DNA from: Gammaproteobacteria bacterium
GTDB lineage: Bacteria > Pseudomonadota > Gammaproteobacteria > Pseudomonadales > Halomonadaceae
Direction of reading: 5' to 3'
NCBI GenBank assembly: GCA_023485185.1
Contig: JAMCZP010000232.1
Location: 1-14,564, forward strand
DNA: 14,564 bases
The notes beneath the pieces were generated by a model that was not told the DNA's origin, did no database searches, and worked only from the letters and a program-made list of their open reading frames with translations. Of the stretch, positions 1 through 14,418 are shown in pieces. The position numbers and the translations under genes were made by a program. The stretch's first letter is position 1, and each line of letters begins with the position of its first letter.

Positions 1-2
1 GC

Positions 3-281
3 AACGATGCCGAGAGCTTGATGCGTGCGGCGTTAATGGGGCAAGGGTTGGTGATGTTTCCTACTTGGCTAATTGCAGACGAGCTAGCCTCAGGCATGCT
101 GTTACCAGTACTCGAAGGGTGGGAGTGCGAGGTCATGCCGGGTAGGCGGGACATTCACGTGCTTTATGCCCAGCGCCGCCTGCACACGCGCAAGGTGAGC
201 GCTTTTCTGGAGCATCTATTTGAGACGGTCGGGCCTACGCCGCACTGGGACTGCTGGCGCGAGCGGAAAGCTGTTAACTAG
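3..281 (+). CDS. LysR-type transcriptional regulator, C-terminal fragment (5' end outside window)
   Basis: Only the last 92 residues are present; the reading frame is open from the window edge to the TAA at 279-281. The start of the fragment (acidic residues, then an 'MRAALMGQGLVMFPTWLIADELASG' type stretch followed by 'LLPVL') is the signature of the second subdomain of the periplasmic-binding-protein-like effector domain of LysR regulators, where an Ala/Gly-rich helix leads to a 'G-L-P-W-L' segment. LysR proteins are cytoplasmic DNA-binding regulators with an N-terminal winged helix, which is not visible here. The effector and target genes cannot be told. Its 3' end overlaps the convergent downstream gene by 8 bases. 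I read it as resident chromosome outside the island. The family call is good, the exact member unknown. Confidence 0.8.
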   Translation, partial: NDAESLMRAALMGQGLVMFPTWLIADELASGMLLPVLEGWECEVMPGRRDIHVLYAQRRLHTRKVSAFLEHLFETVGPTPHWDCWRERKAVN

Positions 282-666
282 CGTCTTGCCAGTCGCCACT
301 GCTGATCTTCGACTGCTCTTCAACATTCGCGTTGAAAAGATAACACCAGGCTTCCCCGTGTCGGGTAGCCAGCACCGCTCGGTCGTATACACCTTCATTA
401 GGTGCGTGGTGAAAATAGTCTTCCAACTGATCAAGCCGTTTTAATTGCTGGGCGTTGATGGCATAAATTTCGACCACGGAGCCATTTGAAGGGGCTAATT
501 TAGCTCCCGGGTAGGGACCAAGATCATACAGGGTAATAGCGGCCAAGCGGTCATGGCCGATGAGTGTCGCGCCTTCAAGCCAGTGGTGATTACGTTGCCC
601 CTGTTTCAACGTGCCGTAGACAGCTACCCTTGGGCAGCGCTGAATATCGCGCTGTAAGTGATCCAT
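274..666 (-). CDS. Gamma-glutamylcyclotransferase-family (AIG2/YtfP-like) protein
   Basis: A 130-aa protein, the normal size for the small bacterial gamma-glutamylcyclotransferase (GGCT) fold. The signature 'VYGTLKQG' lies at residues 16-23 (substrate-binding loop), and the acidic residue that acts as general acid/base is best matched by E82 in 'LDQLEDY'. Y94 in 'VYDR' is also typical. Enzymes of this fold cyclise gamma-glutamyl groups to 5-oxoproline, but the substrate of small bacterial members is often unknown, so I give no specific reaction. The ATG at 666 is well supported: GGAGGTGA sits 5 bases upstream on the minus strand. The gene is convergent with the LysR gene and overlaps its end by 8 bases. 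A terminator-like hairpin lies just upstream of it (694-726). Confidence 0.88.
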   Translation of the reverse strand: MDHLQRDIQRCPRVAVYGTLKQGQRNHHWLEGATLIGHDRLAAITLYDLGPYPGAKLAPSNGSVVEIYAINAQQLKRLDQLEDYFHHAPNEGVYDRAVLATRHGEAWCYLFNANVEEQSKISSGDWQDAS

Positions 667-692
667 CGTGTCACCTCCATAATCGGTAGGCG

Positions 693-748
693 CAAAAAAG
701 CCGCTACCTTTCGGTAACGGCTTTTTCTATGTTTGGTAGCGGGGACCG
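693..748. repeat. Direct repeat copy 1 (terminator plus tRNA acceptor end)
   Basis: These 56 bases match 844-899 at 55 positions; the one difference is G versus A in the spacer between the hairpin and the tRNA end. The repeat covers a complete terminator hairpin and the first 14 bases of a tRNA 3' end read on the minus strand. The two copies are 151 bases apart. Confidence 0.9.
694..726. terminator. Bidirectional rho-independent terminator, copy 1
   Basis: A perfect-looking 9-bp stem, GCCGCTACC pairing with GGTAACGGC (one G-T pair), closes a TTTC loop. It is flanked by AAAAAA on the left and TTTTT on the right, so it can stop transcription in either direction. On the minus strand it would terminate the tRNA gene that once lay to its right. 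Confidence 0.85.
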
Positions 749-783
749 CTGGGTTTGAAATAAAAAGCGAACCGATGACCTTC
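734..783 (-). pseudogene. Degenerate tRNA 3'-end remnant (copy 1)
   Basis: On the minus strand this ends with the acceptor strand and CCA (734-747) identical to copy 2 at 885-898. The matching anticodon-arm/T-arm segment follows at 769-783 (equal to 905-919). Between them copy 1 has 21 bases where copy 2 has 6, so the T-loop is interrupted by about 15 extra bases. Beyond 783 the similarity ends. It cannot make a functional tRNA. It is probably the scar of an earlier integration at the same tRNA site. Confidence 0.7.
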
Positions 784-843
784 CAAGGTGATGATAATCT
801 GAACATGACGCCTTTTTCAAAGACTCTTTATAAAGTTCAGACA

Positions 844-899
844 CAAAAAAGCCGCTACCTTTCGGTAACGGCTTTTTCTATATTTGGTAGCGGGGACCG
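844..899. repeat. Direct repeat copy 2 (terminator plus tRNA acceptor end)
   Basis: Second copy of the 56-bp repeat at 693-748, with 55 of 56 positions identical. Here it runs on without interruption into an intact T-arm and anticodon loop, so this is the better preserved copy. Confidence 0.9.
845..877. terminator. Bidirectional rho-independent terminator, copy 2
   Basis: Same hairpin as copy 1 (GCCGCTACC / GGTAACGGC, TTTC loop) with A-run and T-run flanks. It lies 8 bases beyond the CCA end of the tRNA fragment on the minus strand, the normal position of a tRNA terminator. Confidence 0.85.
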
Positions 900-933
900 G
901 ATTTGAACCGATGACCTTCGGGTTATGAGCCGG
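885..933 (-). pseudogene. 3' part of a tRNA-Met-like (CAU) gene; likely island attachment site
   Basis: Read on the minus strand, this gives an anticodon loop CTCATAA, the stem strand CCCGA, then a variable region, a T-arm with GGTTCAAATCC, the acceptor strand CCCCGCT, A and CCA. The anticodon loop and 3' stem strand resemble bacterial initiator tRNA-Met, but U rather than A precedes the discriminator base. The 5' half is missing: only two bases of the opposite anticodon stem strand pair before the sequence changes. Elements that integrate into tRNA genes rebuild the tRNA at one end and leave a 3' fragment at the other. I infer this is the displaced fragment, with host DNA to the left and the island to the right. 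Confidence 0.72.
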
Positions 934-1383
934 ATTGACTTGGGTTTCCTTACGTTCCCTTTTTTGTTGTTATTTGCAAAAAATGCCCGCTATGTATAGA
1001 TTTTTGCGGTTTTTTAAAATGCTGGCTAGGTAATTTAAGGACAATTGCGTACACTGAGTACTGTCACAAAATTAAAAGCTAAATTTACAGCATAAATGAC
1101 CGTTAGGCTGCCACTGAGTATCAGATTGGCGTGAATGTCATTGCAGGCTGGAGACAAACCCACCCGAGGAACCCATGCTGCCGTAATTTGCTACGTCGGC
1201 ATTATCGCGAGCGAGGACAACGCTTGGGCGAGAAGTGAAAGTTAAACGGTTCAGGCTAGGCTGACGTAGCAAAAACCTTCACGATATTGTCGGCAAGCTT
1301 CTGATCAATTCGGTGGACGCTAGCAAATAATGTGGTGGGAATAATGCTCGAAACCGAGCTGGATGATTAATACAGGAGTGCGC
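934..1383. other. Gene-free left end of the island
   Basis: No convincing gene is seen in these 450 bases; the frames are short, and I recognise no product in them. The first third is AT-rich, unlike the rest of the window. It contains an 11-bp perfect inverted repeat (1187-1197 and 1263-1273). The promoter of the downstream nuclease and recombinase genes should lie here, but I cannot place a -10/-35 pair with confidence. Confidence 0.5.
1187..1273. repeat. 11-bp inverted repeat, 65-bp spacer
   Basis: TTTGCTACGTC at 1187-1197 is repeated as its exact reverse complement, GACGTAGCAAA, at 1263-1273. The pair lies upstream of the Rpn gene and just inside the presumed island end. It could be a binding site for a recombinase or regulator. 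A chance occurrence cannot be excluded. Confidence 0.45.
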
Positions 1384-2343
1384 ATGGCCGACACTAATCA
1401 CAAACATCATGATACTGGCTACAAGGAGTTGTTCAGCTATCCTGAGTTCGTTCAGCAGTTGATTGAAGGCTTTGCACCCGCCGAGATTGCCCAGCTGATG
1501 GACTTCACCACGTTGAAGCAACACAGCGGCTACTACATCACTCCGATGTTTGAAGAGAAGATCGAGGACGTGGTGTGGTCGGTTAACGTCACTTGGGAAG
1601 GTGTAACCCAGGAGGTGTATCTGTATATCTTGCTGGAATTTCAGTCCTCGGTAGATCGCACTATGCCGATCCGGCTAATGCACTACGTGGCCTGCTTCTA
1701 CAGCGAACTGCTCAAGCAAAAAGTCATTACGCCAAGCCAAGGCTTACCGCCCGTGTTTCCGGTGGTGCTCTATAATGGCTCGAAGCCTTGGACGGCACCA
1801 TTAGATGTTTTTGAGATGATTACCCCTGAGCCGCGGGGCTTCCTTCGCGCCTATCAGCCACACCTGCGCTACTACCTAGTGGACGAGGCGCGCTATACTG
1901 ACGAACAGTTAGGTTTGGTACAAACCCCGCTGAGCGGGGTGTTTAGTATCGAGAAAGCTTCTAAAGACCGCCAGGGGCTCCAGCAGGCTGTGGATCGGAT
2001 CGTGGCAATCATCCAGGCTGGCCCCCACAAGGATCGGATTGATAAAATTATCACCCGCTGGCTTAAGCGTCATTTGCAGCGGCTTGGGGCTGAGGTCAAT
2101 CTGGATCAGCTCAACAGTTTGGTGGAGGATAAAGATATGTTGGCAGAGAATCTCGAAAGCTGGGCTCAAAAAGAGCGGCAAGCTGGTGTCGAGGGTACGT
2201 TACGTAAGCTCATCACGCTAAAGTTTGGTGAGATTCCTGACTGGGCAGATATGCGCCTAGAACAAGCGAGCGAGGCGCAAATAGATACTTGGGTAACTAA
2301 GATTCTAACCGCCAATTCACTTGATGAGCTATTCGGCGACTGA
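1384..2343 (+). CDS. Rpn-family recombination-promoting nuclease / putative transposase (PD-(D/E)XK)
   Basis: A 319-aa protein. The N-terminal 'DTGYKELFS' motif (residues 10-18), then 'EDVVWSV' with D61, and 'LLEFQSSVD' with E85 and Q87, are the conserved blocks of Rpn-type PD-(D/E)XK nucleases (formerly transposase_31). Family members cut DNA and raise RecA-independent recombination. Whether this one transposes is unknown. I prefer the ATG at 1384 because AGGAG lies 5 bases upstream (1374-1378); an in-frame ATG at 1363 would add seven unusual residues and has no ribosome site. The C-terminal region (from about residue 240) has the charged 'DMLAENLESWAQKERQ' type helix common in the family. 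The gene lies 95 bases before the recombinase operon in the same direction and may be co-transcribed with it. Confidence 0.88.
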   Translation: MADTNHKHHDTGYKELFSYPEFVQQLIEGFAPAEIAQLMDFTTLKQHSGYYITPMFEEKIEDVVWSVNVTWEGVTQEVYLYILLEFQSSVDRTMPIRLMHYVACFYSELLKQKVITPSQGLPPVFPVVLYNGSKPWTAPLDVFEMITPEPRGFLRAYQPHLRYYLVDEARYTDEQLGLVQTPLSGVFSIEKASKDRQGLQQAVDRIVAIIQAGPHKDRIDKIITRWLKRHLQRLGAEVNLDQLNSLVEDKDMLAENLESWAQKERQAGVEGTLRKLITLKFGEIPDWADMRLEQASEAQIDTWVTKILTANSLDELFGD

Positions 2344-2442
2344 CGTTCCTTCGTAGAGATGCGAAATATGCTGGCTGAAAATTTAGGCAATCTTGCTGAA
2401 AAAGAGCGCCGCCAAGGAGGCGATCAACGAGGAATGTTGTGA
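2344..2442 (+). pseudogene. Vestigial duplicate of the Rpn C-terminal helix
   Basis: The frame of the Rpn gene stays open after its TGA and reads '..VEMRNMLAENLGNLAEKERRQGG..' before stopping at 2440-2442. This closely copies the gene's own residues around nucleotides 2128-2186 ('..VEDKDMLAENLESWAQKERQAG..'). It looks like the leftover of a tandem Rpn copy or of a duplicated C-terminal repeat. It has no catalytic part. Its end overlaps the start of the next gene by four bases. Confidence 0.55.
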
Positions 2443-2966
2443 CAAGTTTGCCAATATCGAAGATCAAATCCCCTTCCGGAGCGCTCGCTGAGATTGAGCG
2501 GGTCAGTATTAATATTGCCAATCAATTGCCCGTGTCGTCATGGCTGAATGCTGAATTAGCCGATACCTTACTTGCCTACCATCCCGTTTCTGTGCAAAAG
2601 GTCTCGAGGCATTACGAAGCTGTCAGTGGATTTCGCGCGTTTCATGCCGTTAGTGCCTTGCTGGATCCAGAGGCCTCCATCTCGGTAGGCATCACAGATG
2701 CTCACGAATCTGATCTGGTCAGAGGAGCGTTGTTTGAGCTTATTAGCCATAGCCTGATGCACTGTCCTGAGGCTGTGGATGCGAAAGAGCGCGTCTATCG
2801 ACAGTTAAAAGAGCTCTCCATTACGCTGCGTAAGACGCACGGCATCAAGGTGCCTAAGAGTCTGTCCACACGCAATCTAAAGGCATTAATGGGACTAGAA
2901 GAGCGCCGCATCACGCATTCAAGGAAGCGAAAATCAGAACTCCAGCGGATCATGGAGTCCCAGTGA
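2439..2966 (+). CDS. gmtX: Small first protein of a three-gene recombinase operon (GmtX-like)
   Basis: A 175-aa soluble protein with a predicted mostly helical character and a very basic C-terminus ('RRITHSRKRKSELQR'). I see no catalytic motif, signal peptide or membrane segment. Translation starts at GTG 2439: the frame is closed by TGA at 2397-2399, no ATG lies between, and GAGG sits at 2429-2432, six bases upstream. It is followed after one base by the 829-aa gene. Assignment to GmtX of the Gamma-Mobile-Trio rests on size, position as the small partner and the two large recombinase-like neighbours, not on a residue-level match. By analogy with TnpC of Tn554 it may be an accessory factor for recombination or orientation, which is inference. 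The operon reading is firm; the symbol is tentative. Confidence 0.6.
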   Translation: MTSLPISKIKSPSGALAEIERVSINIANQLPVSSWLNAELADTLLAYHPVSVQKVSRHYEAVSGFRAFHAVSALLDPEASISVGITDAHESDLVRGALFELISHSLMHCPEAVDAKERVYRQLKELSITLRKTHGIKVPKSLSTRNLKALMGLEERRITHSRKRKSELQRIMESQ

Positions 2967-2967
2967 C

Positions 2968-5457
2968 ATGGTGATGCAAGCAGATTTGGAGAAATTGGCA
3001 ACTTTGAGTAGCGTGGAGCTTTCCAGAATAGAAAAGCTGCTTGCGCTGCTGAAAGCGCCGGATGATCTAACCCACCTTCTCCTAGTTATGGAAAACTTGA
3101 ACCGTGCTTTACAAGCAGTTCAAAGAAGCCAAAAAATTCGGGAGGATCTTGATGATGCGACCGAGAAAAAGGAGGAGAAAGACCTCTTTCATTACCTTCC
3201 TGTCATTATCCAGATTATCGCCGTGCTGAAGGGATTTGATCGCGAAAGCTGCCCAGAGACGTGGTTAGATCAGTCGGGGAAGCAGCGCGGCATTATCAAT
3301 GACCACCCTGAATGGGCGATGCTGATTCTTACCCCCGATGCTGAGTGCTATGGCAATGATGCGTATTGGCAGCATACCGGTGTAGTTATGGCGTGCTCAG
3401 CCGTTCAGCGAAAGCGGCACCAAGCGCATATTGGTTCCGAAATCACCGCTGCTTGTCGTGATATCCGGACGATTGGCAATGGCAAGAAGTCTCTCGGGCT
3501 GTTGGTAGAGATTGAGATGGACGCCACGCTCAAAAGCTATCACAAACAATATCTGCTGGAGGGCGACGAGATCCTCGAGCCGCTGTCGGGTATCGAGTTG
3601 CTCGTTCGAAAAGTACTCGGCCATAAGGGAAAGACGAGAGACGGTGGGGGTGGGGGTGGCCACCCGGCCCGAACGATCGAGCGGCGCGTTGATGTGTCGG
3701 ATTCGGATGACGAGGAAAATGAGGGGCCAGAAAAGTCGATGCAACTGTTGGAATCGGCCGGTGACGAGCAGGCGCAGGGCCGTCAGCGTGCCGCCGGTTT
3801 GCACCCCAAAGAATCCCAGACACTGCGTGCTGTTTCCTTCACGGAAAGTAAAGCATCACCGACATTAGGGTTTGATCTAAGGGACTTGATCCGGCGCCAG
3901 AGCAGCCGTATCCAACATATCAGCCAGTCCAACCAGAGGCTTCCTTTTCGCTACGCCAGCTTAAGTCGGGTCGAGCTATCGCTGGCGGCGAAAGCAGCTT
4001 TCGAGCTATTTACGGGCCGAGGCCGCTTTGAAAAGCGTGATGACGAAGATGTCTATGCCGGTCTACTGCTGCTGTTGATGATCTGGCTTGGACGTCCCGT
4101 CGAGCAGATTCTGGGGATGCGGGTCTATAACCATCGACATGAGCTACCGAAACACCGCAAGGACGTACTCGCTTTTTTGATTGAAGAGCACGCCTTTGTA
4201 CTCCCCATTCCGTCGCCGGAGTGGCGTAACAGTCTCCAGGACGACGCAAAGAAACTGCTCTTTACAGCCGGTGGGAGCACGCCTGCATTGGTGGATGAGG
4301 TAGTGGTGGTCGCCAGTCCCGTGCGGATGGGGAAGTTTATCTCGCGCCTCAGCTTGGTGCGGAAAAGTCGGACAAAATATCGCGAACTGTTTCCCGAATG
4401 GCGTTATGGCGGCATTGAGGAGGCAATGCGGGCGGCGGTTTCAAAGATCAACCGCGCCCACCATATGCGGCTGACACCCCGTCGCATCAGTCAAGCGCTG
4501 TTCGATGAGATCGTCGGCCACTCCAGCGATTGGGTCGATGCTTACCTGTTGACCGGGCACCGTTTCACCGTCGCTGACGTGGCCGCACATTATTACAGCG
4601 TGCCGGCTGGCTATCTTGAGACACTCTATCATGCTGCTGCTGTTTCGCTGCGCAACAGCATTTATCAGTACCTTAGCGTAGAAGAAAAGCATTACTACGC
4701 CTTCAAACAAGTCGTTCAAAACAGGGGCGACCATGGCAGTAAGCTGAACCTCAAACCGATATTGCTGACACGCTTGGTCAAACACCTGAAAGGCGAACTG
4801 CGGGCAGCTAGGCGCCTTCAGCCTAGGGAGGAGACTTGGCGGCAAACGCATAATCATTACGTGGCTTATATCGCTTTCTGGTTACTGTTCGCAACGGGCT
4901 ACCGTGCTGTCAATGACTTGATTTTTCGCTGGCGGGAAATCGATTTTGCATCTGGTTTTCTAGCTATCTCCGATAAAGATGACGAAGCGATGAGTCAGGC
5001 ACGGGTGGCTTGGCTGTTGCCGGAATTGCGTGATCAATTACGCCAGTATGCAAGCCACTTGGAAGTTCTACAGGCTCGGCTTTATCAACGTGCATCTCTT
5101 TACGAGCACCTTGAAGCAGTGTTGAGTGAGCCTCAGCCAGACGTGCCGCTGATGTTCTTTATCAGTGACAGCTGGCAGATGGTTCAGCTCTCTCCAGAGA
5201 ATCTGCGGCGCCACGTACCGCTCTTTACGCTGCCAGTCAACGCAAGTCGGCACTATCTTCGCAGTGCTTTGCGTGCTGAAGGGGTTCGTGGCGAACTGGT
5301 TAATGCCTTTATGGGGCACGCTCAACAAGGGCAGGAGCCGTTTGGCGCTTTCTCTACCTTGACCCCCGTGGAAATGTTTCGGGAGCTAGCGCCTGTCCTC
5401 AGTAAAATGCGCCGGGAAGCGGGATGGACAGTGCAGCAGGGGCTAGCGGATGACTGA
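2968..5457 (+). CDS. gmtY: Large tyrosine-recombinase-like protein of the trio (GmtY-like), with two recombinase-like domains
   Basis: 829 aa, about twice a normal phage integrase. Residues 1-220 are helical with no known motif. A flexible linker follows: six glycines (226-231) and an acidic stretch (about 242-256). The middle (about 320-570) looks like a first recombinase domain: 'WLGR' (R376), 'TPRRIS' (R505/R506), 'TGH' (H531), and 'HYY' (Y542/Y543). The C-terminal part (about 610-829) is a clearer second domain: 'TGYR' (R646), K670, 'RHYLR' (H762, R765), 'MGH' (H784). The residue where Tyr is expected, 11 after that His, is F795. Tyrosine recombinases break and rejoin DNA through a covalent phosphotyrosine, so the second domain may be inactive. 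The start is ATG 2968, with GGAG at 2954-2957; in-frame GTG 2971 and ATG 2974 are alternatives. The end overlaps the next gene by 8 bases. Which large protein carries the GmtY and which the GmtZ name is not certain. Confidence 0.65.
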   Translation: MVMQADLEKLATLSSVELSRIEKLLALLKAPDDLTHLLLVMENLNRALQAVQRSQKIREDLDDATEKKEEKDLFHYLPVIIQIIAVLKGFDRESCPETWLDQSGKQRGIINDHPEWAMLILTPDAECYGNDAYWQHTGVVMACSAVQRKRHQAHIGSEITAACRDIRTIGNGKKSLGLLVEIEMDATLKSYHKQYLLEGDEILEPLSGIELLVRKVLGHKGKTRDGGGGGGHPARTIERRVDVSDSDDEENEGPEKSMQLLESAGDEQAQGRQRAAGLHPKESQTLRAVSFTESKASPTLGFDLRDLIRRQSSRIQHISQSNQRLPFRYASLSRVELSLAAKAAFELFTGRGRFEKRDDEDVYAGLLLLLMIWLGRPVEQILGMRVYNHRHELPKHRKDVLAFLIEEHAFVLPIPSPEWRNSLQDDAKKLLFTAGGSTPALVDEVVVVASPVRMGKFISRLSLVRKSRTKYRELFPEWRYGGIEEAMRAAVSKINRAHHMRLTPRRISQALFDEIVGHSSDWVDAYLLTGHRFTVADVAAHYYSVPAGYLETLYHAAAVSLRNSIYQYLSVEEKHYYAFKQVVQNRGDHGSKLNLKPILLTRLVKHLKGELRAARRLQPREETWRQTHNHYVAYIAFWLLFATGYRAVNDLIFRWREIDFASGFLAISDKDDEAMSQARVAWLLPELRDQLRQYASHLEVLQARLYQRASLYEHLEAVLSEPQPDVPLMFFISDSWQMVQLSPENLRRHVPLFTLPVNASRHYLRSALRAEGVRGELVNAFMGHAQQGQEPFGAFSTLTPVEMFRELAPVLSKMRREAGWTVQQGLADD

Positions 5458-8400
5458 CTATGTCGAGGAAGTTTGGAGCGGCTGGAAGCTAATACAAGTT
5501 CCGGAAGGGGCAGGTGGTGCCGAGGCACGCCATCGGCAGCATCTGCTAAATAGGCGTCGTCACCAAATGGCAGTGCTGGAACTGCTACAGGAAACGCACC
5601 CTGGCCTTGTCCGCGGTGAATCGGATGTCAGCGTGCCGACGGATATCGCCCAGCAGTGGGAAGAAGCCCTACAAACCGGTGACAACCGTTCAGTCGTCGA
5701 AATTCGCAACAAGGTTAACTTCTTATCACTGGGGCTGTCGCGTGGGCAGCGTGAGTTGGGGTGGGATGTGCGCGTTCCAGCGCCGCTGCACCTGGTCAGG
5801 CCAGCGGCGAGTCCTTTTACGCCTTTATCTTTCAAAAATTTAAGCGATTACCGTGACTGGTGCCAGCATGCCGATCATGAGATTAAGCAGCCAGACTTTC
5901 AGGCGATTCTTTGGAACGGCAATGGAAAAAAGGGACACCGTCGGCTTGAGCCTGAAATGATCAGTTGGGGGCTGTTTCTTTATTGTGTGATTGCCAATGA
6001 CGGCCTGCTGGGCAGCAAGCACCTGAACTCACTGCCATTGGCCACCACTACATTGGCAGTGCACGGGGCTTCTGCCTGGTTGGTGCTGCATGAGACGGTA
6101 CCGGACGGCATGCCAAAATCGAAACGGGTGTTGCCACGAAGCCGTTGGCTGTTGGGGGTGTCGGCCTTGGCGGTGTTGATGCGCCACATTCAGCATTTTG
6201 GCCATCCTGGCGAGAAGTGTGGCGGTTATCAGCAGGCCAGGACATATACCCAGACGGCTTGGCTGCACTTCTGTGGCGCTTTAAAGGCTGAGCCGGTATC
6301 ACTTCCGACGTTTAGCGAGCATGCCACGACCGCCTTTCGATTACATGTACCGGCTTATATCGTGAACAGCGCACACGGCAAACATCCAAGCACGTCAATT
6401 GCTGAAGAGCGTTGGCATCAGCTGCTCGCCGGTGGGTACGTAGAGCATACCAAGCCAAAAGCCGAGCAGGAGGATGTGCTTCCAGCAGCAGGATCCGGGC
6501 TAACGCCAATGGTGACCGAGCGTTGTGAGCGGGACCAACCGTTGTATGAAGGGCGTGCGCTGCTGAAATCGTTACACGATACGCTCTATAAGCGTCGTAA
6601 CCAGAAACGCCTCAAATTTCGAGACCTTTCTCGCGAGCTGGAAAGTGCCATTGTTGCTTCTCAGCGTATGGCTCCCATCATTGAATGCCTGTGTCGCTGG
6701 CTGCTGTTCCTGCATCAGAAGCAGAAGCGAAAGCAGTCGACGCTTTACAAGTATCTCGGTGTAAGCATGCCGCTTCTGCAGGCTTTGGGGGAGACGCCGG
6801 TTGATCAGGATCGGATGGATGCGCTTATTGAGGCCTATCAGTTCGTGGTCGAACAGGCCAAGACCGAGAAAAACCGCCACTACCGTTGGGCGGTGTTGCG
6901 CTCATTCCATTCTTTTCTCGTGATTGATCAAGGACTGGCCAATGTCTCTATGGTGTTTGCTGACGGTGGGATAACTGTCGCGCATCACGCCGATGCCAAT
7001 TGTCTGTCAGAGGATGAGTATCGTCTGATAGCTAGCTTTCTTACCTCCCGCTCGGCAAACATCATGGGGCAAATTCGCTATTGGATATTTGTGCTTGGAT
7101 TTCGCGCTGGTCTCAGGATAGGAGAAGCACTTTCCATTCAGCTAGATGATGTCTTGCTCCATCAAGAGGTGCAGGATACTGACGTTACTCTTCTGGTTCG
7201 TAACAACGAGTATGTGGGGGTTAAGAGCCATGATTCACGGCGGCAGCTTCCGCTTCATTATCTGCTGACAGACAGCGAGCTGGAAGCATTCAAGGCCTTC
7301 ATCGCCAATCGACAAGAGGTGACCCTTCACGGTCGTGTCATGCTGTTCGGTGAGGGGAGTGGTTCGGTGGCACCGCTACACGATGATGAGGTGCAGGCAG
7401 AGATCCACGAAGCCATGCGACGTATCACCGGGGATTACAGTCTGCGCTTTCATCACCTGCGTCATTCACTGGCTAATTATCTGTTGCTCTCTTTTCATGG
7501 GGTGGAGATACCCTGGACAGCGCCTTCCCATCATGCTTTTCTTTGGGACAAGGTCGCTGAGGGTCCCACGCGATCAGGGCTGTACTTTATCGCGCAGCTG
7601 ATGGGGCATGCGTCCCCCGATGTGACATTACGAAGCTACTTGCACTTTACCTGCCTGCTCCTTGACCATTATTGCCACAAGCAGTCCTCCTCGATGGAGA
7701 GCTGTATTCCGAGCCACGCAATTGCTCAGTTGGAACCCTTGGCCAACGTGCTCCAAATCAAGCCGGCGATCCTGCGTAAGTGGAAAGAGCGCTTCGGCGA
7801 AAATCCGCCACGTTGGCTTAATAAGGCCTTTCCCAAATGTTCTGTGATAGACGTAGCTCAGCAGGCGTTTGCCCCCTATCCTGAATTGCCAGCCAAGATA
7901 CTGCTTGAGCGCCAAGGTTTGAGTCAGCTATCGCTTGAGCAGGTTGCCGCCGCGCTGGATGCTTTGTATCAACGCGATTTTGACGACGTTGAGCATATCT
8001 TTAATTTGTGTAAAGGCGAGGCAGAGCGGCTAACTTTTTGCGCGCGGCGGGTTCTAACAGCGCGCACGCGGCAGGGGATGAGCGCGTTTCGTCACTACCG
8101 GATGACGAAAGGTAAGCAGCCAGCACCGAATGATTTCGCCCACCCACGCCTGGCAATGCCGCGCTCGCTGGTGGAACGCTCAGTGGCGAATGCGATGTAC
8201 CAAGCCATCTGGTCACGGTGGTTTAGCCATCATCCGGATGAATTGCGTAGGCATCTTCGTTTTTTCTACCGCTACCACCGTGCCACCGACGGTCATGTAT
8301 GGATTCGCGATGCCGATGATGGCTTGGCCTTTGTGAGTTGGGTGCTGGGTCTAGATGTTCACGTTAGAGCAGTCGTTGAGGTGACACCAAGTACGCGATC

Positions 8401-8650
8401 ATCCCTGTCTGAGAAGCAGCAGCTGAGTGAATGGAAGAAGCGACTACCCTCGCATCAACATAAGGTGGAATGGCGATCTAAACCTCCAGGCAACCGTTTT
8501 TCAAAACCGCTGGGCACGGGCAACGTTACTTTCTATGTAGTCAATGAGAATAAGCGTTCTCAAAGTGGCTACCCTGTACGCTATGTGCTGGTGATGGCGT
8601 GTATCGTAATGGCTACGGTCGCCCAACATGTGAGCTCTAAAGTGAGGTAG
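5450..8650 (+). CDS. gmtZ: Very large tyrosine recombinase of the trio (GmtZ-like), complete catalytic set
   Basis: 1066 aa. The N-terminal 380 residues are unassigned. A core-binding-like helical region precedes the catalytic domain (about 530-740). This domain has every expected residue: 'AGLRIGE' (R556), 'VGVK' (K592), 'HHLRH' (H668, R671), 'LMGH' (H720) and the nucleophile Y730 in 'TLRSYLHF'. The last 330 residues are an extension with several Trp/His-rich segments and no motif I know, possibly for DNA binding or partner contact. The start ATG at 5450 lies inside the end of the upstream gene (ATGACTGA overlap), which suggests translational coupling. As the only trio member with an intact Arg/Lys/His/Arg/His/Tyr set, it probably performs strand exchange when the island moves. 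The tyrosine-recombinase call is strong; the GmtZ name rests on the trio context. Confidence 0.7.
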   Translation: MTDYVEEVWSGWKLIQVPEGAGGAEARHRQHLLNRRRHQMAVLELLQETHPGLVRGESDVSVPTDIAQQWEEALQTGDNRSVVEIRNKVNFLSLGLSRGQRELGWDVRVPAPLHLVRPAASPFTPLSFKNLSDYRDWCQHADHEIKQPDFQAILWNGNGKKGHRRLEPEMISWGLFLYCVIANDGLLGSKHLNSLPLATTTLAVHGASAWLVLHETVPDGMPKSKRVLPRSRWLLGVSALAVLMRHIQHFGHPGEKCGGYQQARTYTQTAWLHFCGALKAEPVSLPTFSEHATTAFRLHVPAYIVNSAHGKHPSTSIAEERWHQLLAGGYVEHTKPKAEQEDVLPAAGSGLTPMVTERCERDQPLYEGRALLKSLHDTLYKRRNQKRLKFRDLSRELESAIVASQRMAPIIECLCRWLLFLHQKQKRKQSTLYKYLGVSMPLLQALGETPVDQDRMDALIEAYQFVVEQAKTEKNRHYRWAVLRSFHSFLVIDQGLANVSMVFADGGITVAHHADANCLSEDEYRLIASFLTSRSANIMGQIRYWIFVLGFRAGLRIGEALSIQLDDVLLHQEVQDTDVTLLVRNNEYVGVKSHDSRRQLPLHYLLTDSELEAFKAFIANRQEVTLHGRVMLFGEGSGSVAPLHDDEVQAEIHEAMRRITGDYSLRFHHLRHSLANYLLLSFHGVEIPWTAPSHHAFLWDKVAEGPTRSGLYFIAQLMGHASPDVTLRSYLHFTCLLLDHYCHKQSSSMESCIPSHAIAQLEPLANVLQIKPAILRKWKERFGENPPRWLNKAFPKCSVIDVAQQAFAPYPELPAKILLERQGLSQLSLEQVAAALDALYQRDFDDVEHIFNLCKGEAERLTFCARRVLTARTRQGMSAFRHYRMTKGKQPAPNDFAHPRLAMPRSLVERSVANAMYQAIWSRWFSHHPDELRRHLRFFYRYHRATDGHVWIRDADDGLAFVSWVLGLDVHVRAVVEVTPSTRSSLSEKQQLSEWKKRLPSHQHKVEWRSKPPGNRFSKPLGTGNVTFYVVNENKRSQSGYPVRYVLVMACIVMATVAQHVSSKVR

Positions 8651-8829
8651 GAATAGGCGACACCTCCCTCGCTGGCGTTGCAGTTTTTTTGTGCCGTTTC
8701 TCTAAGGTGGCTACCAGTGTACAGCTTGGGCTGTTGCTGTCTGATCTAGTGTGTCAGGTTAGCAGTGCTAATTTAGGTAAGCGGTATAAGTGCATTACTT
8801 GGCTGCTAGGTTTTCCCTACTCTCAAAGA
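8651..8829. other. Convergent intergenic gap
   Basis: This 179-base gap lies between the end of the recombinase operon and the end of the minus-strand primase-helicase gene. A T-run occurs near 8685-8691, but I see no good hairpin in front of it. No gene is visible. Confidence 0.5.
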
Positions 8830-11163
8830 CTATAGTAACCTATTTTGCTCGGAAGAGGTAAACTGATATTCCATTGCCCTGTAGCCTTTCTCGCGTTTTC
8901 GGTACATGTGTTCAAGCATTGGCAGTCCAGTATCAAGGTAGTCATAGACAGTGACTTCCTGTTTGCCTTCAACCGCTCGGTGGATCCTACCAGCGTACTG
9001 CGACAGCGTTCCTTTCCAGGCGATGGGCAGGGCTAAAAACAGCGTGTCTAACCGAGGCAAGTCAAAACCTTCTCCGATGTATTTGCCAGTTGCAACGATA
9101 ACCTGAGCCTTATGTAACTGCGCTTCCGCCGCCTGACGTTCTCTGACACGCATCCCTCCACGCAATACAACCGACGTTATGGATTCAGCGGCCAACAGTG
9201 CTGCCAGTGTCACGGCGTGCTCTCGTCGTTCCGTCAGGAGAAGGCAGTTTGCCTGGTTGTTCACGCAGCTTGCTACATCCTGAACAATGTCCTGATTCCG
9301 GGCGTTGTTCTGTGCAAGCCAGCGGTAAACTGAGGCTATATGGGGGCGTTCACCAGACTGACAGATATCGGCAGGTGGAATTTCATGACGCTCCCGAACG
9401 ATGACGCGCTGGAGAAACTGTGAGCTGTGTTCCGCCCGAACTTTGTGACGAACGGGCCCCGCAACCATCAACATGATCTTTTGGTGCCCATCCTGGCGGT
9501 CAGGCGTTGCTGTCAGGCCGACGACGTAGCGAGCGCTGACTTCATTAAGAAGCATCTCGTAGCGAGGGGCTGAGATATGATGGCATTCATCGATGATGAT
9601 CTGGCCGTAGTCTCTAACCAAGCTGGAGACCGTATTGTCTTTCTTATTGAGTAGACTCTGGTAGGTGGCAACGTCGACCTGACCGGTAGGTTTCTTTTTC
9701 CCACCGCCTATCACACCCACGGAGACACCCTCAATAAAGGTTTCCAGTCGCTCCTTCCATTGTCCTAGTAATTGGCGACTGTGAGTGAGGATCAAGGTGT
9801 TGACCTGCCGCTTGGCTATTAGGCCAATGGCCGTTACGGTTTTACCGAATGCGGTCGGCGCATGAAGTATTCCGGTATCATGCTCGGCAAGTGCCTCCAC
9901 AGTCCTATTCTGATCATCACGCAGCGTTGCTTTCAGGCTGATGCCATTTAGAACCAGGCCTGGCAGTCTGCGGTCATCGATTTATACCGTTATTCCCTGG
10001 CCCAGCAACAATGCCTGGAGCTCATCAAAACAGCCTCTTGGTACCGAGAGATAACCTTGCTCGATTCGGGCACAGGATATGTAGCGAGGGATACCATGCG
10101 TTGAGAAACGCAGTGCCTGTGTTTTGAAAAATACGGGATTGGCAAAGCTCGCCATGCGCTTAATTCGTGCAGCCAGTGTCCCGGGTATGTCTGACAACTT
10201 CATATAAATATGATTGGCCAGTATGAGCGTGACGGTTTCAGGACAACCGATAATTTTCTCTGTCTCAACTGATAACGCTTGTTCCCACGGCAATGTAACG
10301 TCTGCGGTAGCATCGGAATCTGGCTCCCTACCAACCTTTTCTCCGAGCTGAGCCGGTGAAAGAGACTCTTGCCGACTGAGCAATGCCCATTGATCCAGAT
10401 AAGGAATCAAGTCATCGTCGACGAACACAGTACATCCGCGTTTTCGCACTTGGTGTTGAAGCGGAAGGGCAATCAAATTGCCAAACCCACCAGCGGGCAT
10501 CGTGTCCTGATTGGGGAATAACCGGTCATAGGAATTGAAGGACAAGCCCGGATGGAGATTCATAGCTTTATCCAGCAACTTGAACCCCAGCGTCCTCGCT
10601 GACCAAGCCGGTACGGCTTCCGAAAAGAATATCCACAGATGGGCACCCGCTCCAGACCGAGAGATCTCAACAAGATAAGGAATATCTTCTTCACGACAGG
10701 CCTGAGCTAGCGCACGGACATCTGCTTTCCAGTTCTCTTTATCAAAATCTACTGTCAACAGATAGCAGGAGCTATTCGGTAGTAAAGGGTAAAGGCCAAC
10801 CACCTGCTTACCCGACAGGTGGTCGTATACTGCATTAAAGTCCAGGGGTTTGAATTTTCTATTGGGACATTCCCCGCACTTGATCTGGGGTTTCTGGCAG
10901 AGTCCTGGGCCCCATTCGTTCTCACAGGCGACGGCATAGCCGGAACGGCCACCGGAATTCTGCCAGCGAATCGCATAGACATCCTGCCTGCCACGAAAAA
11001 GCTTCCGGAATAGCTCGACTTTTTGATCGGGGGTTAGCTGCGGTACTGTAGGTCGGTGCGCAGCATGATGCAGCTCGCTCTTCCGGGAAAGAAGGGCAGC
11101 CTTTTCCTTCTCAAGCGCTGATAATCTCAGCTCAATAGCAGCGAGTTCTTGATCTGCTCGGAT
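8830..11163 (-). pseudogene. Primase-helicase fusion of 'TOTE conflict system' type, broken by an in-frame stop and a lost start codon
   Basis: One minus-strand frame encodes, in order: a short coiled coil rich in Leu, Glu and Lys; a four-Cys cluster (codons at 10924, 10897, 10876, 10867); an archaeo-eukaryotic-type primase domain with the catalytic 'VDFD' (about 10741-10752), 'GAHLWIFF' His (about 10640) and 'YDRLFPNQD'; and a superfamily 2 helicase with Walker A 'APTAFGKT' (K at 9841-9843), 'DECHH' (about 9577-9591), 'LTATPDR' and 'QYAGRIHR'. Proteins of this architecture are named for the TOTE conflict systems, thought to act in conflict with foreign DNA. TAA at 9982-9984 falls exactly between 'GITV' and 'IDDRR', splitting an otherwise continuous frame. 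ATC at 11161-11163 sits just after a GAGGTAGGT ribosome site and is followed by a typical N-terminus. The frame, open back to 11202, has no ATG, GTG or TTG before an internal GTG at 10803. Intended length is about 777 aa. Homology is strong; loss of function is inferred. Confidence 0.8.
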
Positions 11164-11229
11164 ACCTACCTCGTGCTTAGTTAAACCGTTTGATCTTACG
11201 ATTTAGCGGATCAGAAAAGCTTATACACA

Positions 11230-11300: not shown

Positions 11301-12663
11301 ATGGTAAACGACGCACTTCACGACCGCTTCGAGACGTATCTTGATGAGCTAGCACCTCGCCTGGGCCATGCTGATCGAGTGAAGGGTTTTCAGAATTACT
11401 GTCGTGGCTTGATGCTGCCGCTGGAACGCAAGAGTATCGAGCCCATCGCCGCCAGTGTCGATCCGGGTAACGTTCAAGCCTGTCATCAGTCGCTGCACCA
11501 CCTGGTGGCTCGCTCTGGATGGTCTGACCGAGGGATGCTCAATGGCGTGGCGCAGCAGGTGCTACCCTACTTGCTGTCCCCCGATACGACGCCTTTTTGG
11601 ATTATCGATGACACCGGTATTCGCAAGAAAGGACGACATTCGGTGGGCGTTAGTCGCCAGTACTGCGGTGAGATTGGTAAACAGGACAATTGTCAGGTCG
11701 CCGTTAGCCTATCGGTGGCGACCGAACAGGCCAGCCTGCCGGTCGCATGGCGGCTTTATTTGCCCACATCATGGACAAACGATCCGGCGCGCTGTCGCCG
11801 CGCTGGCGTGCCAGAAGAGATCGACTTTGCCACCAAACCGGAGATCGCCCTCCAGCAGGTGCGCGAGACACTGGAGGCCGGTATCACGCCCGGTATCGTG
11901 CTGGCAGATGCGGCTTACGGCAAAGTGACGCCGTGGCGAGAGCAGCTTGCGGAATGGGGCTTGAGTTATTGCGTTGACGTGCCGGAGGGTATCAGTGTCT
12001 GGCCGCCTGGCAGTGAGCCTCTGCCTCCGAAGTGGTCCGGCCAGGGGCGACCGCCGACACGGTGGCAGCAGACCTCGGAGCATCACCCAGTGGCGGCACA
12101 AGCACTGGCCGAGTCGCTGGATGCCAATGCCTATCAGGCTATCACCTGGCGGGAAGGTACCAACAAGCCGTTGTGCTCCCGGTTTGCCGCTGTCCGAGTG
12201 CGTGTGGCGCGAGGCCAGCAGAAGCGTGAACCGGAGTGGTTGCTGATCGAATGGCCCCAAAGCGACGCCGCGCCAGCGAAGTATTGGTTAAGCAATCTGC
12301 CGGAAGATACGTCACTGACCACTCTGGTGACGACAGCGAAAGGACGCTGGCGCATCGAACGAGATTATCAGGAGCTCAAGCAGGAGTTTGGGCTGAAGCA
12401 TTACGAGGGGCGCAACTGGCGAGGATTTCACCACCACGCCACTCTGTGTACGGTCGCTTACGGTTTTCTGGTCATGGAGCGCCGACGTTGTGGGGATCAA
12501 AAAAAAATCAGCCCCTGCCAGGCAGTTGCCGTATCCGAAGGCTACTGGGCGCGGGGTCATAAAACGCGCACAACGCCACGTGGTTAACTCCATCGCCACC
12601 CTGCGATGGGAGCTAAATCAGGCGATCATGATAGCGTTGGGTAGTCGATCACGATGTTTATGA
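11301..12663 (+). pseudogene. IS701-family transposase, frameshifted in an A9 tract (or slippage-dependent)
   Basis: A DDE transposase that cuts and pastes its element. Visible catalytic residues are D103/D104 in 'WIIDDTG', D203 in 'VLADAAYG', and E353 with the 'R-x3-E-x6-K' (YREK-like) motif in 'RWRIERDYQELK'. 'YEGRNWRGFHHH' follows, as in the family. The zero-frame ORF ends at 12587 after 428 aa with an atypical tail. After the run of nine A's at 12499-12507, the +1 frame gives the family-like C-terminus ('RAQRHVVNSIATLRWELNQA') and stops at 12661-12663 inside the right inverted repeat. One A too many explains this. Either the copy is inactive, or slippage on the A-run makes the full protein of about 453 aa. 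The start is ATG 11301; I see no strong ribosome site. Confidence 0.85.
12499..12507 (+). other. A9 slippery tract at the transposase frame change
   Basis: Nine consecutive A's mark the exact point where the conserved reading passes from the zero frame to the +1 frame. Loss of a single A in DNA or RNA would restore one open frame to 12663. A-runs of this length are known to favour transcriptional slippage. Confidence 0.75.
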
Positions 12664-12673
12664 CACAGTAGTA
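12657..12673 (-). repeat. Right terminal inverted repeat of the IS701-family element
   Basis: Exact reverse complement of 11234-11250. The stop codon of the full-length transposase frame (12661-12663) lies inside it. Confidence 0.9.
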
Positions 12674-12677
12674 CTAG
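12674..12677. repeat. CTAG target-site duplication, right copy
   Basis: Pairs with CTAG at 11230-11233. Together they mark the target of the IS701-family insertion. Confidence 0.8.
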
Positions 12678-12812
12678 ACACTGTTTTAACCAACTATACA
12701 GCGTCGCGTCAGAGATGCCTTCCTCTGTCGCTACCGATGCCGCACTGTAATTATGGGGTGGCAACAACTTTTTCAGGACGGCTGCTTTACGCTCTGCACA
12801 ATAACGTGGCAC
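12678..12812 (-). pseudogene. IS3-type transposase OrfA fragment
   Basis: From a GTG at 12812, the minus strand reads a protein beginning 'VPRYCAERKAAVLKKLLPP' and continuing to 'EEGISDATLYSWLKQ'. This is the N-terminal helix-turn-helix of IS3-family OrfA (transposase_8 type), which recognises the ends of its own element. Only about 44 residues match before the IS701-family element interrupts it. If that element is removed and one CTAG kept, the frame runs on for some 14 unfamiliar residues and then stops. The gene was therefore probably truncated before the IS701-family element arrived. No OrfB part is present in the window. Confidence 0.65.
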
Positions 12813-12875
12813 AAGGACTCCATGCCGCTCCCTCTGGATTAGATTTAGGCGATATCGCCAACCGGACAACTGGTA

Positions 12876-13141: not shown

Positions 13142-14344
13142 TCATACAGTTGCCCGGCTTCCATGTGGCTTGCTCATCGCTTCGCATACAATCGCCCACA
13201 AGAAGCCAGCCAGCTCTCGCGCTACTGCCGTGACGACCTGTTGCTTCACCTTGCCTGTAGCAGCCAGTCGGCGGTAACGACCGCACAGGCGTTTTTGGGC
13301 CTCCCAAGCGATGGCTTGAACCGCTGGCGAGGTTATCTCCGCCCGCCGCTGAATCGTTCGCGTCTTACGTGCCGGGAAGCGATAGCTCCAAGCAGCCTCT
13401 ACCAGCACGCGTCTTACATGTCCATTGCCGGTCTTGGTGATACCGCCTTGACGTCGGCTGCCGCCGCTGGAGTGCTCGCTGGGCACGAGACCCAGATAGG
13501 CCATCAACTGACGAGGCGAGTCGAAACGACTAATATCACCGAGCTCAGCGAGTACCGTCATTGCCGTAATCAGGCTCACGCCGCGCATCGCCATCAGCGC
13601 CTTCACCACAGGAGCCAGAGACCAGTTTGTTAACGCTTCCCCCATTTGCTTTTCGAGACTGGCTACACGGCGCTGAGCGTCCTTCACGGTATCGATGTAC
13701 TCGGCCAGCACGATCTGCTGAACCGGCGTACCGAAACGGACCGTCTCTAACCAACGGAAGTGAGCAGGCCCCCATTTGCTCTTGCCACCGTAGATCTTGC
13801 CATGCCGTAGCAAAAAAGCGCCCAAGCGTTGTCGAGCCTTGAGTTCGATGGCCTTTATGTCTTCACGTGCCCGCGTTAGGTCCCGAATCGCCTCTTGCTC
13901 ATGGGTGGGGACCCACACTGGGGTAAGCTCGCCGGTGCGAGATAGGCGTGCCAACATCTTTGCATCGCGCCGATCTGTCTTGACGCGATCTCCTGCACGT
14001 TGGGGAATTAAAGATGGAGCGACCACCTCAGCGTCATGGCCACTGTCTTGTATCTGGTGATAGAGCCCGTAGCCGCAGGGACCGGCCTCATAACTGAACA
14101 GTAGTGGCTGCCCCTCGAAACGTTGGCTCAGCTGATAGAGCAACTTGTCTATGGCCTTGGGATTATTGGGGATCTCACCGCGGAACTCGGGTTCCTTGCG
14201 GCCTGCTTCGGCGATGGCTACAGATATACTCTCCTGGTGTACATCCAGACCAATATAGGCGGCATGGACGTCGCTGACAGCGTTGAGCCTGTCAGCAGTG
14301 ACGGATTGAACAATGGAAGGCTGAGTTAGATTAGACTGTTTCAT
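13142..14344 (-). CDS. IS110-family transposase (IS1111 group)
   Basis: 400 aa from ATG 14344, with AGGCAGG just upstream. A GTG at 14356 in the same frame would add four residues. The N-terminal RuvC-like DEDD domain shows 'YIGLDVHQ' (D34), 'YEAGPCGYGLY' (E86), and 'KTDRRDAKMLARL' (D124, D127). A coiled-coil stretch runs over about 155-240. The C-terminal Tnp domain has 'MRGVSLITAMTVLAELGD' (a helix-hairpin-helix-like segment) and 'PSEHSSGGSRRQGGITKTGNGHVRR' (about 288-312), which holds the catalytic serine. Such proteins act with a structured guide RNA to recombine element and target DNA. The gene looks complete and undamaged, so the element may still be mobile. Confidence 0.92.
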   Translation of the reverse strand: MKQSNLTQPSIVQSVTADRLNAVSDVHAAYIGLDVHQESISVAIAEAGRKEPEFRGEIPNNPKAIDKLLYQLSQRFEGQPLLFSYEAGPCGYGLYHQIQDSGHDAEVVAPSLIPQRAGDRVKTDRRDAKMLARLSRTGELTPVWVPTHEQEAIRDLTRAREDIKAIELKARQRLGAFLLRHGKIYGGKSKWGPAHFRWLETVRFGTPVQQIVLAEYIDTVKDAQRRVASLEKQMGEALTNWSLAPVVKALMAMRGVSLITAMTVLAELGDISRFDSPRQLMAYLGLVPSEHSSGGSRRQGGITKTGNGHVRRVLVEAAWSYRFPARKTRTIQRRAEITSPAVQAIAWEAQKRLCGRYRRLAATGKVKQQVVTAVARELAGFLWAIVCEAMSKPHGSRATV

Positions 14345-14418
14345 GACCTGCCTCACTCAATAGCGGCTATATATTGTTACCTCAAAACCAACGTAACCCA
14401 CGACGTTGATGAGGGGTA

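Follow-up and report, generated by a model that had tools for sequence, protein, structure and literature searches.

An unnamed three-gene recombinase set at the left end of a tRNA-fMet island in Halomonas/Vreelandella

The DNA analyzed here (the window) is a 14,564-nucleotide stretch of contig JAMCZP010000232.1 (assembly GCA_023485185.1) from a salt-loving gammaproteobacterium of the family Halomonadaceae, and it contains a three-gene recombinase operon, hereafter the trio, next to the remnant of a tRNA gene. The operon had been recognized in an initial annotation, and its three open reading frames (ORFs) were confirmed at positions 2439-2966 (gene 1, 175 aa), 2968-5457 (gene 2, 829 aa), and 5450-8650 (gene 3, 1066 aa), all on the forward strand, with a single base between genes 1 and 2 and an overlap of 8 bases between genes 2 and 3. 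Gene 3 encodes a giant tyrosine recombinase (PF00589, 36.3 bits with a cut-off of 27.1), and the residues R556, K592, H668, R671, H720, and Y730 picked out by that annotation are invariant in all 17 aligned sequences, that of the window included. Judged by these matches, it is the sole complete tyrosine recombinase in the window. Gene 2 is predicted to encode a pseudo-recombinase, as its C-terminal part is modeled with a tyrosine recombinase fold that lacks the conserved nucleophile, while gene 1 is predicted to have the ParB/sulfiredoxin (Srx) N-domain fold that defines the ParB superfamily. The CTP-binding motif of ParB proteins reads GxRRxxA and ENxxR. This nucleotide motif is partly kept in gene 1, with G64 and R66 present in 20/20 sequences of the close group and E100 also among the positions kept there, and it is mostly lost in a second subfamily described below, which has N64 in 9/9 sequences. 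At 175 aa, gene 1 leaves scant room for a ParB C-terminal dimer domain. Named relatives are annotated as hypothetical or uncharacterized in 8/8 cases for gene 1 and 9/10 for gene 2, and current annotation therefore misses the module.

The tRNA remnant proposed by the initial annotation is present at window positions 886-931 on the reverse strand, where it comprises the 3' 46 bp of an initiator tRNA-fMet gene, from the anticodon stem to the acceptor end, and forms the core of the left attachment site (attL). All 46 positions are identical to the intact tRNA of genomes G010 and G090 and to the copy at the far end of the island in G029. The window has no complete tRNA; the intact copy found elsewhere is a tRNA-Met with anticodon CAT that has a mismatch at 1:72 and an anticodon stem with three G:C pairs, both of which are features of initiator tRNAs. 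With the core on the left and the intact tRNA-Met on the right, the two lie 76.6 kb apart in G029 and 62.6 kb apart in G003. An intact tRNA without a gene 3 match occurs in G010, G079, G087, G090, and G099, the last of these genomes being only 74% complete. The comparison with island-free genomes suggested by the initial annotation revealed an uninterrupted tRNA site in G010 and G099, which align with one another across the tRNA with both flanks continuous, and it places the left end of the island at 886-931. The left flank of G079 and G090 resembles that of G010 solely within repeats adjoining the tRNA. Outside the island, window positions 1-899 share 88% identity with the G010 sequence flanking its intact tRNA and include a chromosomal GGACT (gamma-glutamylcyclotransferase-like) gene (274-666, reverse strand; PF06094, 78.6 bits). 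These alignments, which show the tRNA 3' end directly repeated, the tRNA intact on the opposite side of the element, and an uninterrupted tRNA in other genomes, identify a tRNA-anchored integrative island, of which the window represents the left end within the initiator tRNA-fMet gene of Halomonas/Vreelandella. The window itself holds this left end only, and an IS110 transposase lies close to its right edge.

The left end is conserved as well. Window positions 887-1118 are 80-86% identical in G001, G002, G003, G029, and G031, and the portion belonging to the element (932-1118) includes a TGTCACA word at 1062, which occurs once per left end in 6/6 left ends compared. The right ends of G029, G003, and G002 have two or three exact GTCACA-type words and a terminator ahead of the tRNA, the words being spaced by 11 bp in G029 (103313, 103324, and 103335) and in G003 and by 22 bp in G002; GTCACA-type words are also scattered within the islands. 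In G002 and G035 the attachment (att) cores form a stack, and in G001 and G003 the sequence just before attL is a right-end terminator, from which it follows that these elements accumulate in tandem. Near the tRNA site, a terminator plus the tRNA-fMet 3' end was also observed in tandem, about 140-155 bp apart, both in the window (693-748 and 844-899) and in G079 C1, G090 C1, and G010 C25, while the end motif occurs five times in G079. Such copies could be scars of past insertions or products of slippage. Contig C1 of G035 (L123, 3297-7903) has a 4.6-kb remnant between two tRNA-fMet att copies, in which neither a trio nor an integrase was detected.

The trio is not a chance arrangement, since the 6.2-kb unit aligns with five other genomes at DNA identities of 97, 85, 84, 73, and 73%. 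Among 58 related genomes, gene 3 is present in five, with a protein identity of 72-95%, and genes 1 and 2 are interrupted in G002. The ratio of nonsynonymous to synonymous substitution (dN/dS) was 0.06-0.31 in 9/9 pairwise comparisons, with dS toward G029 near saturation, indicating that the trio is maintained by selection. Over 6.3 kb, the trio is 97.2% identical to that of G001, whereas the chromosomal flank is merely 74-80% identical to this genome and better matched by G010. Thus, the island has moved between lineages.

Related sets extend beyond the close group. A second Halomonas subfamily has the gene order of the window and proteins of about 170, 795, and 1100 aa; 11 of its loci were fetched, of which seven have three full ORFs, two have a split gene 2, one is truncated at a contig end, and one has a fragment of gene 2 without a recognized gene 1. 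The gene 3 profile matched 8/369 genomes sampled from the class (E ≤ 1e-15) and the gene 2 profile matched 13/398 genomes sampled from the phylum (E ≤ 1e-12), five of which lie outside the class. The two genes are adjacent in G215, G158, G192, and G347, and the preceding gene scores 63.0 bits with the gene 1 profile in G158 and 22.7 bits in G215. A Vibrio cyclitrophicus plasmid encodes proteins of 197, 743, and 995 aa in the same order, with 119.6 and 106.6 bits for the gene 2 and gene 3 profiles, respectively. A tblastn search of 72,556 plasmid records with gene 3 returned 296 that match over its central part, 290 of which are from Acinetobacter, with 23-25% identity among the matches listed. 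The Acinetobacter layout is read from one plasmid record, Acinetobacter pittii p1_005069 (L120, 1262-7283), which encodes 154, 779, and 1066 aa in the order of the window (gene 3, 112 bits; gene 2, 20 bits; gene 1, undetectable similarity); its middle and small proteins have homologues in 255 and 221 Acinetobacter plasmid records, respectively. Genes 2 and 3 are also found fused, yielding proteins of 1799 aa in G027, 1797 aa in G001 C23, and 1635 aa in G031 C12, the latter starting at the first bases of its contig, in addition to shorter fused matches in G020 and G246. The fused genes start about 10 bp (G020) and 120 bp (G027) from attL, and it is at the attL end of tRNA-fMet islands that either a trio or a fusion sits.

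A conventional arm-type integrase is encoded at the other end of several of these islands. We searched the three genomes with mapped islands (G002, G003, and G029) for PF00589, which identified, at the attR end of G003, a 412-aa integrase with Arm-DNA-bind_2, SAM-like, and catalytic domains and, at that of G002, one of the same type with an internal stop. Across 82 genomes, there are 18 copies of at least 78% identity, and 16 of these lie 761-802 bp from tRNA-fMet (the 16th being that of G063); no whole tRNA lies within the fetched stretch beside the integrase in G001 C23 and G025 C16. A second integrase group of 16 copies (53-59% identity) is downstream of and convergent with the trio in 11/11 trio-selected loci, and all five integrase-selected loci have a trio or the part left by a split or a contig end; the trio is complete in 9/16 loci. 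A relative with 49-58% identity lies near the gene pair or trio in G215, G158, and G347 (L092, L093, and L095). Along G001 C23, the integrase is followed by a short frame, taken by eye for a helix-turn-helix protein, and then by a right end (96% identical over 210 bp to that of G029), an att core of 30 bp, a left end, and the fused recombinase, a layout that resembles the junction expected of a circle or a tandem pair. A circularized island would similarly place the integrase and the trio on either side of attP. In G003, an HD-domain/TraI_2-like ORF adjoins the arm-type integrase, mostly overlapping (L054:7092-8186), and ORFs of about 315-370 aa occupy the same place at six other right ends (L124-L129).

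On balance, we lean toward a cooperative reading of the locus, in which the window is the left end of an island whose unnamed trio acts alongside the arm-type integrase in excision and integration. The trio proteins would form one complex, with gene 3 as the enzyme that cuts, gene 2 as a dead partner that holds the partner site, and gene 1 as an architectural or switch protein that positions or bridges the ends, while the phased GTCACA motifs are candidate sites for this complex. Working together with the arm-type integrase, it would resemble the four-protein systems of the strand-biased circularizing integrative elements (SE) and of GInt elements, with the integrase and the trio flanking attP as the halves of a single recombination module. 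The association of the two is apparent from the loci compared, while their cooperation and the role of each protein are what we infer from it. A more elaborate version is doubtful, namely that a ParB-fold switch on helically phased GTCACA end sites licenses the synapse of the dead and giant recombinases, with a separate arm-type integrase, and that diverged forms drive both the Halomonas islands and the Vibrio and Acinetobacter plasmid modules. Several observations weigh against the cooperative reading. The evidence is comparative throughout, and excision, a circle, and transfer were not observed. The 76.6-kb island of G029, for which both ends are present, and the 53-kb trio-bearing segment of G002 each lack any PF00589 match besides gene 3, and no integrase was seen in the stretches of G192, G246, and G261 (L094, L096, and L098) or of the Vibrio and Acinetobacter plasmids, some of which are short; cooperation is therefore not obligatory. 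In the opposite direction, the integrase occurs at tRNA-fMet without a close trio in G008, G019, and G028. For G001 and G031, the trio is found on one contig and the tRNA-side integrase on another, and the two would presumably belong to one island. The predicted folds also have limits. Gene 1 sequences of the two subfamilies are weakly related (hhalign probability 10%), and the gene 1 profile does not recognize a counterpart in G192, in G347, or in the sets from the Vibrio and Acinetobacter plasmids. A profile-profile comparison of genes 2 and 3 detected no homology, the method being weak enough to return 44% for GmtY and GmtZ, and gene 2 is tied to recombinases by its predicted fold alone.

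The initial annotation had the operon driving the island, which is unproven, as the conventional integrase lying next to the intact tRNA in several of these islands is a candidate driver in just as good a position. Indeed, the arm-type integrase might integrate the islands at tRNA-fMet by itself, with the trio a passenger or serving a separate function beside attL such as end protection, exclusion of competitors, or cargo exchange. This account, which we consider somewhat unlikely, draws on the position of 16/18 close integrase copies at 761-802 bp from tRNA-fMet, some of them in genomes that lack a close trio, and on the classical domains of the enzyme; the 16/16 second-group copies that adjoin a trio or its remains speak in its favor too. 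It does not readily accommodate the G029 island, in which gene 3 is the only PF00589 match between two mapped ends, nor the Vibrio and Acinetobacter plasmid stretches that have a trio without a nearby integrase, and the fused genes at about 10 and 120 bp from attL (G020 and G027) occupy the place of an att-bound recombinase. The converse would have left-end elements integrate and excise by means of the trio alone, with the integrase contributed by other elements stacked in the same hotspot. The absence of an integrase from G029 and the left segment of G002 is consistent with such an arrangement, as are the stacked att copies of G002 and G035 and the right-end terminator immediately left of attL in G001 and G003. 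However, the second integrase group adjoins a trio or its remains in every one of 16 loci, and the right-end DNA of G029 is common to integrase-bearing islands (G001 C23, 96% over 210 bp), so we regard a trio acting alone as quite improbable. A separate question is the identity of the trio, which the initial annotation took to be a Gamma-Mobile-Trio (GMT), a system reportedly presented in Mahata et al. 2024. A three-gene recombinase operon with conflict-type cargo is indeed what the two have in common, but an NCBIfam hmmscan of the trio yielded no match to GmtX (NF040692), GmtY (NF040693), or GmtZ (NF047926) at E ≤ 0.1. The profiles performed well with a positive control locus in G215 (L081), giving 210.9 bits for GmtX (cut-off 40), 508.9 for GmtY (340), and 765.1 for GmtZ (600), while a second control in G468 (L082) gave 394.3 bits for GmtY, 330.4 for GmtZ (below its cut-off of 600), and 63.6 for GmtX. 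Profiles built from the trio likewise had no match in either GMT locus at E ≤ 0.01, and the G215 locus has the order Y-Z-X with 441, 908, and 200 aa versus 175, 829, and 1066 aa in the window. In 14 Halomonas genomes, GmtY exceeded its cut-off in none, and the weak matches in ten of them are not located at a trio. A GMT identity is accordingly extremely improbable, and by these profile comparisons the trio is a so far unnamed recombinase set distinct from it. The initial annotation was right about an operon of three recombination genes lying close to one end of a tRNA-anchored island with a conflict-type gene, and wrong in its assignment to GMT, the absence of GMT profile matches being the refuting outcome that the annotation itself had named.

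The remainder of the window consists of cargo and insertion sequences. Between the left end and the trio lies an Rpn/YhgA-like nuclease gene (Transposase_31; 1363-2343, forward strand; PF04754, 101.3 bits). This slot is variable, with an Rpn-type nuclease in the window and G002 and a TOTE primase-helicase in G001, G003, G029, and G031, where it is divergent from the trio. Downstream of the trio, positions 8820-11224 on the reverse strand are homologous to a TOTE-type primase-helicase (PF22548 and ResIII/Helicase_C; ORFs 8830-9900 and 9982-10803). The conflict-system gene claimed by the initial annotation is upheld by its AEP-TOTE domain (204.9 bits), except that the gene is broken into two ORFs (356 and 273 aa), the beginning of its primase domain being out of frame, and an intact AEP-TOTE primase-helicase is absent from the window. 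The same region aligns with G003, where a single 797-aa ORF carries both domains; as one ORF, the gene encodes 797-799 aa in G003, G029, and G031 and 693 aa in G001. The side of the trio on which TOTE is found varies between islands, and in G001 a TOTE fragment 93% identical to that of the window also follows the trio. Further downstream are an IS701-family transposase gene (11301-12587, forward strand; NF033540, 442.1 bits), a short ORF (12618-12869) with weak similarity to the IS66/IS3 accessory TnpA, and the IS110-family transposase gene near the window end (13142-14356, reverse strand; NF033542, 278.5 bits). For the cargo of the G029 and G003 islands, PADLOC and Pfam scans covered ten large proteins from their 110 ORFs of at least 120 aa. 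The four from G029 comprise a QatA-type defense protein, two heavy-metal ATPases, and an antiporter-like protein, and the six from G003 comprise three glycosyltransferases, a cadherin-repeat giant, a subtilase, and a protein with a methyltransferase domain that weakly matches mad2. The QatA homologue (L029:3123-5042, 371.8 bits) is directly downstream of the G029 trio, and together with the three ORFs that follow it may constitute a complete QatABCD defense system.

Multi-recombinase island modules as a kind are already known from SE and GInt elements, while our literature search found no description of the trio composition, the ParB-fold partner, or the separate ordinary integrase. SE encode IntA, Tfp, IntB, and Srap and, according to their description (PMC10214605), share with the trio islands an ordinary and a large tyrosine recombinase, a recombinase-fold protein without catalytic residues, and a small auxiliary protein, located at one element end in Gammaproteobacteria. 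They differ in that the SE operon has the order intA-tfp-intB-srap and two RHRY recombinases, an arrangement absent from the window, where the operon opens with the small protein and has one complete recombinase. Other differences are that the ordinary integrase of trio islands is of the arm type and is convergent or at the opposite end; that gene 1 is predicted to have a ParB fold, whereas the low-confidence model of Srap is TetR-like and includes a coiled coil; and that, in place of a 6-bp footprint, the target is a tRNA block of 46 bp, the other end of the island having an intact tRNA. For pAQU1, the annotation of three stretches shows no SE operon, and the trio profiles had no match in the first stretch, the one to which they were applied. 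GInt elements (ginABCD; PMC5385486) similarly have four genes, a recombinase relative without a catalytic residue, a small auxiliary protein, and cargo to at least 70 kb. However, they combine GinA and GinB with full motifs plus GinC and a GinD modeled as helix-loop-helix, and are bounded by 10-11 nt direct imperfect repeats at an ABC-transporter gene, ssb, and other sites. By description, the window is set apart from three recombinase-type genes plus a small protein, as it has three genes of small, middle, and giant size. GMT, as described by its NCBIfam models and by a paper citing it (PMC12715929), also has two recombinase-type proteins, one small protein, and defensive cargo, and differs in profiles, order, and sizes. 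RIT and Tn554 are likewise operons of three recombination proteins; according to PMC8138268 and PMC10214605, RIT has three recombinases and Tn554 has TnpA, TnpB, and TnpC with no Tfp-like helper, a description from which the window is set apart by its one complete recombinase, one without the conserved nucleophile, and one ParB-fold protein. The ParB/Noc/KorB CTPase family shares the predicted fold of gene 1 and differs in that gene 1 has kept its nucleotide motif only in part. The SE, GInt, GMT, and RIT multi-recombinase islands are poorly understood, including why some of them need a defective recombinase and a small helper. The trio family gives this helper a predicted fold with a mechanism known elsewhere, that of ParB clamps, and natural gene fusions tie the defective recombinase to the giant one. 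With mapped ends, uninterrupted sites, and a circle-like junction at hand, the question of why a defective recombinase and a helper are needed becomes directly testable.

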